In this document: one piece after another, positions 21,181 through 30,372 of the stretch
How positions within the stretch are numbered: the stretch's first letter is position 1
Layout of the letters: each line of letters opens with the position of its first letter
Source: Terriglobales bacterium
Lineage (GTDB): Bacteria > Acidobacteriota > Terriglobia > Terriglobales > Acidobacteriaceae
Reading direction: 5' to 3'
DNA: 34,805 nucleotides
Assembly (NCBI GenBank): GCA_025927695.1
Contig: JAICLA010000004.1
Coordinates: forward strand, 1 to 34,805
Notes under the pieces: model-generated
The model's database searches: none
Told to the model about the DNA's origin: nothing
The model's input: only the letters and a program-made list of their open reading frames with translations
Made by a program: the position numbers and the translations under genes

Positions 21181-21276
21181 AGATGAGTCTTTCGAAGCCG
21201 ATATCCCGTATGTAGTACTGCAATCCTGTTGTCATGCAGGCCTGTAACTAGCTGTTCAATCTTTTTTGGAGTTGTG

Positions 21277-24189
21277 ATGAATTCGAGTATTTTCGCAATC
21301 TTGAAAGCGGCGATGCTCGCCGTCTTATTTTCCGCGGCGGCTGTCGCGCAGACCGGTACCGGAACACTCCGCGGGGTGGTCTCTGATCCCTCGGGCGCAG
21401 TGGTGCCGCAGACTACGGTGATCGCTACGTCGGCGAGCGGCCAGACTTATACCGGCGTGTCTTCAAAGTCCGGCGTATATGAAATCAAAGATCTGCCCGC
21501 AGGGCACTACACGCTCGACGCTTCTTCCGCCGGATTTTCTCTAGGCACGGTCCCGGAACTGGATGTCACCGCCGGCCAGGTCACAACGAAAGATGTGAAG
21601 TTCGACATTGCCGTGCAGCAAGAAAAAGTAAACGTGGAAGAATCCGGCAACCAGGTGGACGTCTCGCCGGGCAACAACGTAGGCGCGGTGGTGCTCAAGG
21701 GCAAAGATTTGGATGCCCTGTCTGACGATCCAGATGAATTGCAATCTGACTTGGCGGCATTGGCCGGCCCCGCAGCAGGTCCGAACGGCGGACAGATCTA
21801 CATCGACGGGTTTTCTGGCGGACAGTTGCCGCCGAAATCTGCCATCCGCGAGATCCGCATCAACAGCAATCCTTTCTCTGCGCAGTTCGACCGCATTGGA
21901 TTCGGACGTATTGAAGTCTTCACCAAGCCCGGCTCTGACAAATTCCACGGCCAAGTCCAGCTGAACGACAACCATTCCTTCTTTAACGCCGACAACCCGT
22001 TCGCAAAAGTCATTCCTGACTATCACACGGACATGGTCAGTGGGAACGTGAGCGGTCCGATAAGCAAGAAGGCGTCGTTCTTTCTGAATGTGCAGCAGCG
22101 CAATATTCAGGATGCGTCGATCATCAATGCGGTGATCCTTGATCCGACGCTGACCGCAACCCCGTTCAATGATGCGGTGCTGAAGCCGAACACGCGTACC
22201 AGCGTGACGCCGCGCGTCGACGTGCAGTTGACTGACAACAACACGCTCAGCATGCGCTATGAGTTCAATCGCAGCGCTCAGTCAGGTTTGGGTATTGGCG
22301 GCTTCGATCTCTCGAGCCTGTCTTACAACACCAACAGCATCCAGCACGAGATCCAGCTCAGCGATACGCAGACCATCAATCCGACGACGATCAACGAGAC
22401 GCGGTTCCAATTCGAACGAAATCGCAACAGCACAGCCGCGGACACGCTCGCGCCCACGGTCAACGTAATTGGCGCGTTCACGAATGGCGGCAACTCAATC
22501 GGCATCGCTGCGGTGGACACGGACGCCTACGAGTTCCAGAACTACACTTCGATGAACCGCGGCAAGCATTTCATCAAGTTTGGCGCGCGCGTCCGCGCTA
22601 CGCAGCTTTCCAATACTTCAACCGGCGGTTTCAACGGCACTTTCACTTTTGATTCTTTGGCCGCCTACCAGGTCACGCAGCAAGGAATCGCTAACGGGCT
22701 CACGCCCGCGCAGATCCGCGCAGCCGGCGGCGGAGCCAGCCAGTTCTCAATCACGCAAGGCCAGCCTTTGACAGAGAACACCTATGCTGATGCGGGACTC
22801 TACGTGGAAGACGATTGGCGCATCCGCCCGAACCTGACAGCGAGCTATGGCCTGCGTTACGAAACGCAGAATGGCATCGGCGATCATCTCGACTTCGCGC
22901 CGCGCCTCGGCATCTCCTGGGGACTGGGCAGTTCGAAGACTACGCCGAAAACTGTTATCCGCGCAGGCTGGGGCATCTTCTATGACCGCTTCTCACAAAA
23001 CTCGATCCTGCAGGCGGAGCGCCTCAATGGCGTGAACCAGCAGCAGTTCGTGGTGAACTCGCCGGATTTCTATCCCAATATTCCCACTGCGGCAGCGTTG
23101 GCCGGTGCGATCACTTCGCCGACCATCTATCAGATCTCGCCGAACATCCGCGCGCCTTACAACATGCAGGGCGCCGTGACGGTGGAGCGCCAGCTTTCCA
23201 AGATGGCCACTCTGTCAGTCTCATACATCAACTCGCGCGGCATGCATAACTTTGACATTCGCAACATCAATGCTCCGCTTCCCGGAACCTACACCGGACC
23301 GGGCACGGGCGTGCGCCCGCTGGGCAATGCGGACAACGTTTATATGTACGAGTCAGAAGGCATCTTCAAGCAGAACCAGTTGATCGCCAACTCCACTATC
23401 CGGATGGGGCAGCGCCTTTCGCTCGCCACTTACTATTCGTTGAGTTTTGCAAATGCTGATACTTCAGGCAGCTTCCCGACCAACAGCTATGACCTCAAGG
23501 CAGATTATGGGCGCGCCAGCTTTGACGTGCGTAACCGTTTCTTCATCGGAGGCTCTGTCAGCGCACCGTGGGGCGTGCGTCTCTCACCGTTCATCACGGC
23601 GAGCTCAGGCGTGCCGTTCAACTTCACCACCGGGCAAGACTTGAACGGGGATTCCATTTTCAACGACCGTCCGTACTTTGCCACAGGCACCGGACCGGGG
23701 ATCGTAGTCAGCAGGTTCGGAACGTTCAGCGCTGTTCAACAACCCGGTGCCGCAATTGTTCCTATCAATTACGGCAATGGTCCGGCGCAGTTCACTATCA
23801 ACATGCGAGTGAGCAAGACCATTGGTCTCGGACCGAAGATTGAAAGCGCCGGCGGCCGTCGAAATGGCGGCGGCGGTGGTGGTGGCGGAGACCACGGCGG
23901 TGGCCCCCGCGGTGGTGGCGGAGCAGGTGCCGCGATAGCGCGTGGTGGTGGCGGTGGCGGACCCATGGGCGGCATCTTCAACAATGCCACCACACCGCAC
24001 AAATACAACCTGACGCTTTCAGCCAACGCGCGCAACCTGTTTAACCGCGAGAACCTGGCCGCACCGATCGGCAATTTGAGTTCGCCGTTGTTCGGCACGT
24101 CGAACGCCCTTGCTGGTGGAGGCTTCGGCCCCGGCGGCAGCAGCGCTTCCAATCGCCGCATCGATCTTCAGGTGCAGTTCAACTTCTAG
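21277..24189 (+). CDS. TonB-dependent receptor-like outer membrane protein (Oar-like, carboxypeptidase-regulatory N-domain)
   Basis: GTLRGVVSDPSGAVVPQTTVIATSASGQTYTGVSSKSGVYEIKDLPAGHYTL, plug-like segment, beta-barrel repeats, terminal IDLQVQFNF. Confidence 0.9.
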   Translation: MNSSIFAILKAAMLAVLFSAAAVAQTGTGTLRGVVSDPSGAVVPQTTVIATSASGQTYTGVSSKSGVYEIKDLPAGHYTLDASSAGFSLGTVPELDVTAGQVTTKDVKFDIAVQQEKVNVEESGNQVDVSPGNNVGAVVLKGKDLDALSDDPDELQSDLAALAGPAAGPNGGQIYIDGFSGGQLPPKSAIREIRINSNPFSAQFDRIGFGRIEVFTKPGSDKFHGQVQLNDNHSFFNADNPFAKVIPDYHTDMVSGNVSGPISKKASFFLNVQQRNIQDASIINAVILDPTLTATPFNDAVLKPNTRTSVTPRVDVQLTDNNTLSMRYEFNRSAQSGLGIGGFDLSSLSYNTNSIQHEIQLSDTQTINPTTINETRFQFERNRNSTAADTLAPTVNVIGAFTNGGNSIGIAAVDTDAYEFQNYTSMNRGKHFIKFGARVRATQLSNTSTGGFNGTFTFDSLAAYQVTQQGIANGLTPAQIRAAGGGASQFSITQGQPLTENTYADAGLYVEDDWRIRPNLTASYGLRYETQNGIGDHLDFAPRLGISWGLGSSKTTPKTVIRAGWGIFYDRFSQNSILQAERLNGVNQQQFVVNSPDFYPNIPTAAALAGAITSPTIYQISPNIRAPYNMQGAVTVERQLSKMATLSVSYINSRGMHNFDIRNINAPLPGTYTGPGTGVRPLGNADNVYMYESEGIFKQNQLIANSTIRMGQRLSLATYYSLSFANADTSGSFPTNSYDLKADYGRASFDVRNRFFIGGSVSAPWGVRLSPFITASSGVPFNFTTGQDLNGDSIFNDRPYFATGTGPGIVVSRFGTFSAVQQPGAAIVPINYGNGPAQFTINMRVSKTIGLGPKIESAGGRRNGGGGGGGGDHGGGPRGGGGAGAAIARGGGGGGPMGGIFNNATTPHKYNLTLSANARNLFNRENLAAPIGNLSSPLFGTSNALAGGGFGPGGSSASNRRIDLQVQFNF

Positions 24190-26189: not shown

Positions 26190-26930
26190 TTATTCTTCGT
26201 ACTCGTCAGAACCCTGCACCCAGAGGAATGACTGGATATCCATCATGTCGCGCGGCTTCATATCACGCAGGTCGAGGCGCACTTTGTCAGCGAACCGCAG
26301 GAGGTGCGCATAACTCTCAGCATTCGGGCGCGACTTGTACTCGAAGTCGTATCCGTATTCTTCCGCTGCGCGCTTGGTGACCATCGGCTTTAGGAAAAAG
26401 TGCACGTCAGGTTGCGCGATGAATCCGAAGACTGTGACTACGGGCCACGTGAGCACGCGCGTCTGCTTGCGCGGCAAGCCTCCGACCACCTCGATCCATT
26501 TTGCGAATCTGCGATCGATGCTCTCGCGGACGTAAAGAAAATCGTAAAGTCCCTTGGCAAATTGTTCTGCTCCGTGCGTGGGCTTTACTGCGTCGCGCAA
26601 TGCCATCTTCTCGAAGGAAAAGAGCAGGTTTGTGCGCGACTCGATCCTGACTGCGCGGGCTGCGATCTCTGCGAAGTCGGCCGCTGCGATCAGCCGTTTC
26701 ATCTCAGCCTGGCTGAGTTGCTGCTGCCATTGCTCGTGCGCGGTCCATTTGTATCCGCGTTCCCAATCGATATAGGTCTCATCTCTGAAACCGTCGGGAA
26801 AAAAGCGCAAGAATTTTTTGCGACAACGGATCGCGCCTTTGGTGAGATTCGACGGAGCCGGTTTGCCCGACTCGGTGAAGGCCTTTGAGGCAGAATGCGA
26901 TTGAGAGTTGTTGAGCGATGCGCGCGCCAT
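26190..26930 (-). CDS. Conserved hypothetical protein
   Basis: 246-aa ORF, CRKKFLRFFPDGFRDETYIDWERGYKWTAHEQW; no domain recognised. Confidence 0.75.
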   Translation of the reverse strand: MARASLNNSQSHSASKAFTESGKPAPSNLTKGAIRCRKKFLRFFPDGFRDETYIDWERGYKWTAHEQWQQQLSQAEMKRLIAAADFAEIAARAVRIESRTNLLFSFEKMALRDAVKPTHGAEQFAKGLYDFLYVRESIDRRFAKWIEVVGGLPRKQTRVLTWPVVTVFGFIAQPDVHFFLKPMVTKRAAEEYGYDFEYKSRPNAESYAHLLRFADKVRLDLRDMKPRDMMDIQSFLWVQGSDEYEE

Positions 26931-26964: not shown

Positions 26965-28266
26965 TCAGTGCATGCTCGAAGCAGGCCTGAAGCGCAGGAA
27001 AACAGCTACTCCCGCCGGATGTTTGCCATAAATCGGAGTCAGTGAATCAGGAACTCCGTACCAGGTCACCTGCGCACCCAGCGCGCTCGAGAGATGCGGG
27101 ACGATGGGCAACTCACGGTCATATCCAAGGCTGTAAGCTTGGACGCGGCCGATGATGTTGTGAGCGAATCCGGGCGGCTGGGCATTCATGCCCAGCAGCA
27201 GCTCATTTGTCCGGTCGACGTTTTCGATGCGCGTCCAAACACGATTCTTCTCAGTGAATCGCAATGTTGATTCGGCGAGATAGCCGTTCCAGACGATGTG
27301 CTCAGCGACTTCACTATTCCTACCCCAGAGCAACATTGACGACCATTCGCCATGGGCGATCGGTCGGTTGTACATCACCGACGCGGTCATGCGATCAGTG
27401 TCTTCGTCGGGATGAAGCGCTTCCGGGCTCGTCAGCCGTCCGAAGGAGTATTGCGCGCTCCAATTTTTCGCCGGGTTTACGGTTAATCGGGTTGACCACG
27501 AATCGATCGCGCCGTGCTCAATATTCCAGCGGTTCTCGTCCGGCTCACGTCCGTGGAATCCTGAGGCTTCGATGCGAAAGAACTTGTGCGTGAGACTGAT
27601 AGTCAACACGTCTGCAGCGATATGCGTCGAATCCTGCAGGTGGTGCCCGAGCGGCGCCAGCGGATCTTCTGAAGCCGACGCTCGATGCGGGAATGCTGCC
27701 GGGCCAAGCGCGGGATCGCCCATTGGCGCAGCGTAAACCGTGAGAACGGTATCATCGCGTAGCTTTAAGTCGTACAGCGCCGCGATCTCCATGAACAGGT
27801 CGTGCGGGTGTTGTCCGTCATTGATCGGACGGCCGAACGCAGTCTCACCTTGTTGAAACATCTCTGGATAGAAGCGTCCAGTGACCGTCGCAGGTTCGAG
27901 GCTGAGCATGGTCCGGAATGTGATCTGCCCGCGCTTGCCGATATTGCGCTGCGCCATTGGCATGAACCAGCTGGTGGAGAATACCTTGTCCGCGCTTCGC
28001 GGTCCGCTTTGCTGTTGTGCAGTGACGAATGCCGCGCCGTGGAACATGAAACGCCAGCTTTTGCGCTTCCACATCAGCATTGGCGGTGACTCTGACTCGG
28101 GCTCTGCCGTCGTTCCGGTTGTTGCGTGATGCAACGCTTGAGCGATCAAGGGCTGCGAGTCTTGCGCTTGATCATGCCGCATGCCGGGCATGTTCATGCC
28201 TTCGTGCTGAGCGACGGCCACCGAGGAACATACCAATAGCATTTGAAGTACGGGCGCGAACTTCAT
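26965..28266 (-). CDS. Hypothetical exported, probably beta-barrel outer-membrane protein with Met/His-rich N-terminus
   Basis: Signal peptide then QHEGMNMPGMRHDQ; alternating barrel-like strands; C-terminal VAVFLRFRPASSMH. Confidence 0.75.
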   Translation of the reverse strand: MKFAPVLQMLLVCSSVAVAQHEGMNMPGMRHDQAQDSQPLIAQALHHATTGTTAEPESESPPMLMWKRKSWRFMFHGAAFVTAQQQSGPRSADKVFSTSWFMPMAQRNIGKRGQITFRTMLSLEPATVTGRFYPEMFQQGETAFGRPINDGQHPHDLFMEIAALYDLKLRDDTVLTVYAAPMGDPALGPAAFPHRASASEDPLAPLGHHLQDSTHIAADVLTISLTHKFFRIEASGFHGREPDENRWNIEHGAIDSWSTRLTVNPAKNWSAQYSFGRLTSPEALHPDEDTDRMTASVMYNRPIAHGEWSSMLLWGRNSEVAEHIVWNGYLAESTLRFTEKNRVWTRIENVDRTNELLLGMNAQPPGFAHNIIGRVQAYSLGYDRELPIVPHLSSALGAQVTWYGVPDSLTPIYGKHPAGVAVFLRFRPASSMH

Positions 28267-28288
28267 CTCTCAACAATGTATCAATGTA

Positions 28289-28819
28289 TTAATGGATCGT
28301 GGAGTTGTCGCCCGTTCGATGCTCCGTGATTTGGAATTTCAGGAATTGTTGGATGGCCTTCAGCGCTTCTGCATTCTGCGTCTTAATGCGCACCCGCGCT
28401 CCCAGTCGTGTCTCTTCATATTCATAAGAAATATCCTTCTTTAAGGACTGCATCACAGGAACGCCTGGCGGTGTCTGGTCATGCACGAACATAGGGATGG
28501 AGAAATCCCCGTTCGTAAACATCATCGCAATATGGCGCATGTGCATACGGATCTCAGCGATGCTGTCCGTATCGTCCGCTGAATCGGCGAATGCTTCGAT
28601 AGAGCCGCCATCTGCCGATAGTAGGAAATGATGGCCGGTCTTCTCGTGAGAGAAACCCATGCCGATGTCTCCGCGCTGATCAACCGCAGTGTCCTTCTGA
28701 TGTTTCGCATGCATCGGACAATCCTTCATCGAATCATCATCATTCTTTTCTTTCGCAGGTTCCTGCGCCAGCAGGGAAACCGCGCACAACATCATGAGAA
28801 CAATCGCGAGCTTTTTCAT
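28289..28819 (-). CDS. Hypothetical exported protein with DCPMHAKH candidate metal motif
   Basis: MKKLAIVLMMLCAVSLLAQEPAKEKNDDDSMKDCPMHAKHQKD; ATG overlaps the upstream MerR stop (ATGA). Confidence 0.75.
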   Translation of the reverse strand: MKKLAIVLMMLCAVSLLAQEPAKEKNDDDSMKDCPMHAKHQKDTAVDQRGDIGMGFSHEKTGHHFLLSADGGSIEAFADSADDTDSIAEIRMHMRHIAMMFTNGDFSIPMFVHDQTPPGVPVMQSLKKDISYEYEETRLGARVRIKTQNAEALKAIQQFLKFQITEHRTGDNSTIH

Positions 28820-29280
28820 TTCGTGTCTCTCCTGAACATTTTATTTTTGTCTACTGCCGGCCTGGCTTCCAATGACGACAACAGGAACGCTTTCTGTCCC
28901 GGTCCTACCTTGCGCATCTTCTTTTTCCAATCCACCAGCATTTTGCTTAGGTATCTCTCGGTTTCTTTCAGGGCCTCAATATCCGCTCGCACCCGCGTCA
29001 GCTTCTCCTGCGCCAAGCCATAAGCACGTCGGCAAGGCGCGGCGCCTGAGTCGCGCACCCGGAATATCTCTGCCAACTCCGCCAGCGTGTAGCCCACACG
29101 CAACGCGCGTTGCACCGCGACTACGCGCTCTGCTGCTTCCCTGGTGAATATGCGATATCCGCTTTCGGTTCGAACTGCGGAGGGCAATATTCCCAGCCGC
29201 TCGTAGTGCCGGATGGTGTCTGGACTTACACCTGCGTGAGTTGCCAACTTTCCTGACGTCAATCTGCCGTTCAGGTTCAT
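28816..29280 (-). CDS. MerR-family transcriptional regulator
   Basis: LTSGKLATHAGVSPDTIRHYERLGILPSAVRTESGYRIFTREAAERV: MerR HTH and wing; long dimerisation helix with a single Cys. Confidence 0.93.
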   Translation of the reverse strand: MNLNGRLTSGKLATHAGVSPDTIRHYERLGILPSAVRTESGYRIFTREAAERVVAVQRALRVGYTLAELAEIFRVRDSGAAPCRRAYGLAQEKLTRVRADIEALKETERYLSKMLVDWKKKMRKVGPGQKAFLLSSLEARPAVDKNKMFRRDTK

Positions 29281-29285
29281 AGGAG

Positions 29286-29317
29286 AGTATGGACTCTGGA
29301 ATGCATTCCAGAGTCAA
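29286..29317 (-). promoter_or_regulatory. MerR-type promoter with 24-bp perfect palindrome in a 20-bp spacer
   Basis: Minus strand TTGACT-CTGGAATGCATTCCAGAGTC-CATACT; palindrome GACTCTGGAATGCATTCCAGAGTC at 29292-29315. Confidence 0.88.
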
Positions 29318-29352
29318 CAGGTATTTTTTTGAAAAAGGAAGGAAGGGAAGAG

Positions 29353-30372
29353 CTAGTCGGCGTGCGCCATCTTCTCGTTCGCGATCTCTTGCTCGATCTT
29401 GGCGTTGATCTTGGAGTCGGCGAATTGTGCGGCCACGCGGATCGCGTTCTTGATCGCGGTTCCGTTCGATGAGCCGTGGCCGACGATGCATACCCCTTTG
29501 AGGCCTAGCAGCGGCGCGCCGCCGTACTCAGCATAGTCGAGGCGTTTTTTGAAATCGGCGAAGGCCTTCTTGGAAAGGAGGAAGCCCACTTGTGACGAGA
29601 TGGTGGATTTCAACGATTCTTTCAGGAGGAAGCGGACCGCTTCCACCAGGCCTTCGGAGACTTTTAGTGCCACGTTGCCGATGAAGCCATCGCAGACGAT
29701 CACGTCGGCGTTGCCGTTATAGAGGTCGCGGCCTTCAACGTTGCCGACGAAGTTGATGGGAAGGCGCTTGAGCAACGGATAGGCATCCTTTGTGAGGTCA
29801 TTGCCTTTGGATTCTTCTTCGCCGACGCTCAGCAATCCCACGCGCGGGCGCGGGATGTTGAAGATGCTACGCGAATACATCTCGCCCATGATGGCGAACT
29901 GTTCGAGGTTCTGCGGTTTGCAATCGACGTTTGCGCCGACGTCGACAAGAATGGTTGCTGTCCCTTTGGAGGAAGGGAAGACTGCAGCTAATGCGGGACG
30001 ATCGACGCCCGGCAGTGCGCCGAGCACCATTTTTGCCGTTGCCATTGCGGCGCCGGTGTTGCCGGCGGTGGTGAATCCGGCGGCGGTGCCTTCGCGGACG
30101 AGACGCAGGCCGACGCGCATGGAAGAATCGCGTTTGCTGCGCACGGCGCTGGCGGCCTTTTCGTCCATGCCGATGACTTCCGTGGCATTCACGATCTCAA
30201 TGGGAAGCCGCGCCGCGGCCGGGTGGAGAGCCATCTCCTCGCGGAGCTTGTCCTCACGGCCTACGAGCAACACGCGCACGTCGTAGTGCCGCGTGGCGAG
30301 TATGGCGCCTTCGACCTCTGGTTTTGGGGCCTTGTCAGACCCCATCGCGTCAACCGCTATGACGGTGGGCAT
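29353..30372 (-). CDS. plsX: Phosphate acyltransferase PlsX
   Basis: [75 protein letters not shown]. Confidence 0.97.

Follow-up and report, generated by a model that had tools for sequence, protein, structure and literature searches.

A one-cysteine MerR module beside a predicted copper-associated outer-membrane barrel in an Acidobacteriaceae genome

Three adjacent genes on the minus strand of the window, by which we mean the whole 34,805-nucleotide stretch of Terriglobales DNA analyzed here, from the genome of a soil acidobacterium, are best explained as two units lying side by side: a MerR module answering to a thiophilic metal or to envelope stress, and a copper-associated barrel that this module now also drives, a reading to which we assign a probability of roughly 0.55. 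Unit 1 consists of merR (28816..29280, 154 aa) and a gene for a small exported protein whose family has no name and which carries the motif DCPMHAKH (28289..28819, 176 aa); the two genes overlap by ATGA at 28816-28819. After a gap of 22 nt follows the barrel gene (26965..28266, 433 aa), whose product is predicted to be a 16-stranded beta-barrel of the outer membrane; its family, likewise unnamed, has copper context. The first-pass annotation had described these open reading frames, their spacings and a MerR-type promoter, all of which are present in the window. It had also regarded them as a self-contained, dedicated three-gene cassette, a view that the comparison with other genomes described below does not bear out. 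The window is contig C149 of an assembly that comprises 318 contigs and is 72% complete, and the best-matching relatives are Acidobacteriota.

The inducer, the metal binding, the direction of transport and the co-transcription that we infer can be put together as follows. MerR would drive its own gene and that of the small exported protein through a ZntR-like operator with a 20-bp spacer; by analogy with other MerR proteins, a soft metal or thiol-reactive signal at the conserved cysteine would untwist the promoter and switch it on. The small exported protein, with its Cys/His/Met tail and His-rich core, would bind or buffer the stressor in the periplasm. The disordered Met/His tail of the barrel would gather copper from the periplasm, and the barrel's loops, lined with His and Asp, may form a narrow path or a binding site across the outer membrane.

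Membership of the regulator in the MerR family is firm. Its 154-aa sequence has the N-terminal HTH and the dimerization helix of this family, and Pfam matches to PF00376 (9e-15), PF13411 (1.6e-14) and PF09278 (1.2e-8) all lie above cut-off. No NCBIfam equivalog cut-off for ZntR, CadR, MerR or CueR was reached, the best being TIGR02051 with 80 bits against the required 151. In an alignment with 12 orthologues, ZntR and CueR, the window protein retains one of the three classical metal-ligand cysteines, at the ZntR C79 column; the orthologues keep the same cysteine, and the C-terminal loop cysteines are absent from them as they are from the window protein. A published screen demanded at least two of the three ligand cysteines for metal-sensing MerRs (PMC1526738), by which the window MerR would fall outside the metal-sensing subgroup of MerR, ZntR, CadR and CueR, whereas those divalent-metal MerRs that have been tested cannot do without the cysteine equivalent to C79 (PMC3431237). 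The metal role previously deduced from the regulator is weakened, since a single classical ligand cysteine is present.

The promoter and operator, TTGACT-CTGGAATGCATTCCAGAGTC-CATACT with a 20-bp spacer, was found as an exact pattern match on the minus strand (29286..29317), once in the window against none expected in 100 shuffles. A repeat search located within it a perfect, unstranded 24-bp palindrome (29292..29315; arms of 12+12 nt, 100% complementary), the predicted binding site of a MerR dimer; a palindrome in a promoter spacer of 19-20 bp is the arrangement that defines MerR promoters. The operator shared by the unit 1 loci, TTGACY-CTGGAA..TTCCAGRGTC with a 20-bp spacer, is close to that of E. 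coli zntA (TTGACTCTGGAGTCGACTCCAGAGTGTATCCT), and the ZntR consensus is given as ACTCTGGAGTCGACTCCAGAGT in a 20-bp spacer (PMC1526738). This site lies upstream of most of the MerR orthologues examined, and its conservation supports the MerR control proposed earlier. The window system thus resembles ZntR/zntA of E. coli in its MerR-family regulator, in a near-identical palindrome (ACTCTGGA..TCCAGAGT) within a 20-bp spacer and in the cysteine at position 79. It differs in lacking the C-terminal cysteine/histidine loop, in having the operator on merR itself, whereas zntR reportedly does not control its own expression, and in targeting an exported protein instead of a P1B ATPase.

In two loci (L087 and L135) the operator stands between merR and the small gene, which is thus a direct target of the operator there. 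A search for a wider regulon with the exact pattern did not reveal one: the pattern occurs once in the source genome and at seven sites across 150 genomes, four of which are merR-small gene loci (the window, G045, G054 and G077). The other exact matches are in G062, G073 and G110, genomes with no detected small gene. In the retrieved flanks of ten small-gene copies that have no neighboring MerR, the operator was not found; these flanks are short, and a MerR may lie elsewhere. Between the -10 box of the window promoter and the ATG of merR there are 5 nt (29280-29291), with a similar closeness in L086; because of this short distance, the merR transcript may be leaderless, or the real start codon may lie downstream of the called ATG.

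The pairing of merR with the small gene is recurrent. The small protein is present in 33 of the 150 genomes sampled from the same family and in 20 of the 297 sampled across the phylum. A MerR gene adjoins 16 of the 26 retrieved small-protein loci, usually with an overlap, while the flanking genes differ among the loci listed. When 15 close MerRs are taken as the starting point, 12 have the small gene next to them and one more stops at a contig edge. The recurrent MerR linkage that the first-pass annotation proposed to look for by a neighborhood survey thus holds for the small protein, and from these sequences unit 1 appears to be a conserved, autoregulated module of MerR and a small exported protein that recurs in many Acidobacteriota. 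Two loci with diverged MerRs show other partners behind a like operator. In G123 the partner is an exported Metal_resist/LTXXQ protein with the mature tail MKDCPLHAHH, and in G103 (L194 2555-6488) the regulator and operator precede genes for an adaptor of the CusB/HlyD type, a permease resembling MacB and an ABC ATPase, the latter two named by the appearance of their sequences. Such partners would tie this type of regulator to efflux or to metal or envelope stress, a link that leaves the choice of signal free.

The small protein itself gave no Pfam, NCBIfam or PDB match, and its family members scanned singly gave only stray weak matches; PDB profile and fold searches, Foldseek included, returned nothing below E = 0.05. 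Its family alignment has invariant H63, H93, H113 and H167; H157 is nearly invariant but is replaced by Q in the window copy. The core is conserved, whereas the DCPMHAKH Cys/His/Met tail is variable and missing in many members. An AlphaFold2 model, built from two sequences only, predicts a core of two beta-beta-alpha repeats, mostly at pLDDT >85. The protein resembles the Metal_resist/LTXXQ family (CpxP/Spy/CnrX-like) in that the G123 member replaces it behind the same operator and has a similar DCPLHAHH tail, and differs from it in its two-repeat core and in the absence of a Metal_resist/LTXXQ Pfam match among 22 members of the small-protein family. Its short Cys-Pro-Met-His motif likewise recalls the CPMHP motif of HMBD (PF19335), but there is no Pfam match and the motif sits in the variable, often missing tail. 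A scripted count of Cys-containing tails against MerR linkage, which included signal peptides, gave p = 0.69; a by-eye recount made after it, restricted to cysteines behind the signal peptide, gave 11/17 linked against 1/10 unlinked proteins, a figure drawn from related sequences and to be taken as a lead only. No relatives of the small protein were found in viral contigs. Remote relatives (~28% identity) on Methylomagnum and Cupriavidus plasmids (L124 5926-6483; L125 5857-6450) are labelled 'aspartate carbamoyltransferase', probably a misannotation.

These observations bear on a possible but rather less probable explanation, in which MerR responds to a non-metal signal (an electrophile, an oxidant or a compound active on the envelope) by way of its single cysteine or of a pocket. 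On this view the small protein would act in envelope stress generally, and the barrel would be an ordinary porin or would have come along as a passenger. The retention of one in three ligand cysteines would fit such a sensor, as would a small-protein core that matches no metal protein and the HlyD-MacB-like ABC exporter of G103, a type often serving organic compounds. A metal signal is favored by the ZntR-like operator, by the position of the remaining cysteine at a residue essential in the tested divalent-metal MerRs, by the G123 Metal_resist/LTXXQ partner, which shares the Cys/His tail, and by the copper context of the barrel family described below.

The three-gene order merR-small gene-barrel was seen in no other genome. 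In other genomes that encode both proteins, the small gene and the barrel gene are separated by megabases or sit on different contigs, except in L060 (Gemmatimonadota), where they lie ~4 kb apart with no MerR match; we therefore rejected the small protein and the barrel as a conserved pair. A segment with the operator, merR and the small gene (28229..29356, minus strand) is absent from same-genus G125/L105, the closest relative, in which blastn aligns both sides of it. There plsX and the barrel stand together with 83 bp between the aligned parts, against 1.13 kb in the window, and with neither MerR nor the small protein. The simpler reading of this sequence comparison is that unit 1 was inserted between plsX and the barrel gene in the source genome; alternatively, it may have been lost in G125. 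As unit 1 stands between plsX and the barrel in the source genome, the barrel gene should be co-transcribed there under MerR control. A 246-aa protein with no Pfam match (26190-26930) is kept beside the barrel in G125/L008. Elsewhere in the window, 21229-24189 encodes a large exported protein, perhaps an outer-membrane protein of the TonB-dependent type, with a long glycine-rich stretch near its C-terminus (~23800-23950).

The same comparison makes it quite improbable that the three genes are a dedicated, co-evolved metal-handling cassette replacing pump-based resistance, as was first suggested. The ATGA overlap, the 22-nt gap and the lack of obvious room for a promoter before the barrel do speak for such a unit, but the small gene and the barrel are unlinked in other genomes that have both, plsX and the barrel occur in G125 without the other two genes, and the same genome has a copA-like gene linked to CsoR. 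This last gene lies on contig C286 (L172 1145-3780), where a copA-like gene stands behind a csoR-like one and encodes a P1B ATPase containing YHS and HMBD domains, so that copper export exists outside the locus; the absence of a pump noted in the first-pass annotation is accordingly true of the locus and does not extend to the genome. That the juxtaposition is an assembly error of the metagenome bin is very unlikely. The fragmented, incomplete assembly and the uniqueness of the gene order would be compatible with such an error, whereas the DNA on either side of the extra segment aligns within a single contig of G125, to the syntenic plsX-barrel region.

Like the small protein, the barrel has no Pfam, NCBIfam or PDB sequence match, and its family members scanned singly gave only stray weak matches; both hypotheticals thus fall outside every Pfam, NCBIfam and PDB family covered by the searches, and no description of either family was found in the open-licence literature. 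One scan of genome contigs yielded 506 barrel-related stretches, the best 80 of which come from Acidobacteriota, Gemmatimonadota, Proteobacteria, Myxococcota and others, with one on a Bacteroidota plasmid. Matches carrying an internal in-frame stop occur in G027, G053, G089, G113 and G119. The AlphaFold2 model of the window protein (pLDDT 87, pTM 0.85) has a porin-like fold of 16 strands, and Foldseek matches it to porins with E down to 2e-11, at a TM-score of ~0.5 (by query length) and ~10% identity.

Two features set this predicted barrel apart from general porins of the OmpF/OmpC type, which it resembles by its Foldseek matches and strand number: a Met/His tail and outer loops that are its most conserved part. 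The predicted disordered N-terminal tail, delimited by pLDDT and composition, covers residues 20-48 (28123..28209, minus strand), and pLDDT falls below 50 for residues 7-37. The Met/His-rich N-terminus pointed out earlier is weak evidence in the window protein taken singly (5/15 residues, p ~0.009) and holds across the family, in which Met and His make up 20% of the N-terminal tails against 7% of the barrels and exceed 10% of the tail in 60 of 67 members. In L017, L019 and L024 a Cys-rich segment (GVCGDCLDxW-like) takes the place of the Met/His tail at the N-terminus of the barrel relatives, although the called start may be wrong. The two long loops, which are outer according to the inferred topology, both lie on the minus strand. 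The first, residues 122-157 (27796..27903), has a mean column conservation of 0.72 and includes the motif QHPHD (invariant Q152 H153 P154 H155 D156); the second, residues 184-216 (27619..27717), has the highest conservation in the protein, 0.78, with the motifs HR.S and HH..D..H (invariant H208 H209 D212 H215). The strands average 0.44-0.66, below both loops. Outer loops of porins normally vary. The conserved His/Asp motifs suggest an inward-folded binding site in the predicted barrel, which could serve a ligand other than copper.

The copper association of the family is seen in the gene neighborhoods of many distant relatives of the window barrel. A motif screen found P1B-ATPase-like ORFs at 16 of 80 barrel loci (866 kb) and at none of 20 control windows, which were drawn from four same-family genomes and in which ~0.4 would be expected from the relatives' rate of ~0.43 per Mb (32 above-cutoff matches in ~74 Mb). 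CopC, CopD, HMBD and YHS proteins adjoin some barrels. A Pontibacter plasmid has a copper ATPase upstream of the barrel and a four-helix copper protein downstream, and a Sphingobium plasmid has MerR, DUF305, DUF2933 and a heavy-metal ATPase near it. The link to copper drawn from the barrel in the window is therefore sustained at the level of the family. Near the closest Acidobacteriaceae relatives of the barrel (L004-L015) there is no P1B ATPase, CopC, MCO or CsoR, and for this reason the copper role of the window barrel rests on its family membership.

The Met/His tail of PcoB is required for copper resistance (PMC12509749), and the tail of the window barrel may, by analogy, work like that of PcoB/CopB (PF05275) without being homologous to it by sequence. 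Both are outer-membrane barrels, predicted in the present case, with a disordered Met/His-rich N-terminal tail and copper neighborhoods. These likenesses are what would recommend the barrel as a divergent CopB/PcoB, a proposal that we rejected as extremely unlikely: PF05275 matched neither the window protein nor any of 68 members (E up to 0.01), profile comparison with CopB by hhalign gave a probability of 0.2%, 16 strands are predicted against 12 in PcoB, and the conserved outer-loop His/Asp motifs are a further difference.

We tentatively propose, at somewhat less than even odds, that the barrels form a class of outer-membrane copper proteins not described before, which has no sequence relationship to CopB/PcoB and occurs in Acidobacteriota, Gemmatimonadota, Proteobacteria, Myxococcota and Bacteroidota. 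On this proposal the Met/His tail would supply copper to the conserved His/Asp loops, which would let it through or trap it, and in the source genome the barrel would have come under a new one-cysteine type of MerR whose usual target is an exported metal-stress protein without a name. Little is understood of how copper passes or is retained at the outer membrane, and PcoB is the case that has mainly been studied. A barrel family that is large and unnamed, with copper neighbors and conserved outer-loop His/Asp motifs, offers a second case to test beside PcoB, and a one-cysteine MerR that recognizes a ZntR-like operator but lacks the usual metal loop makes its signal testable. Two sizeable protein families could receive names.
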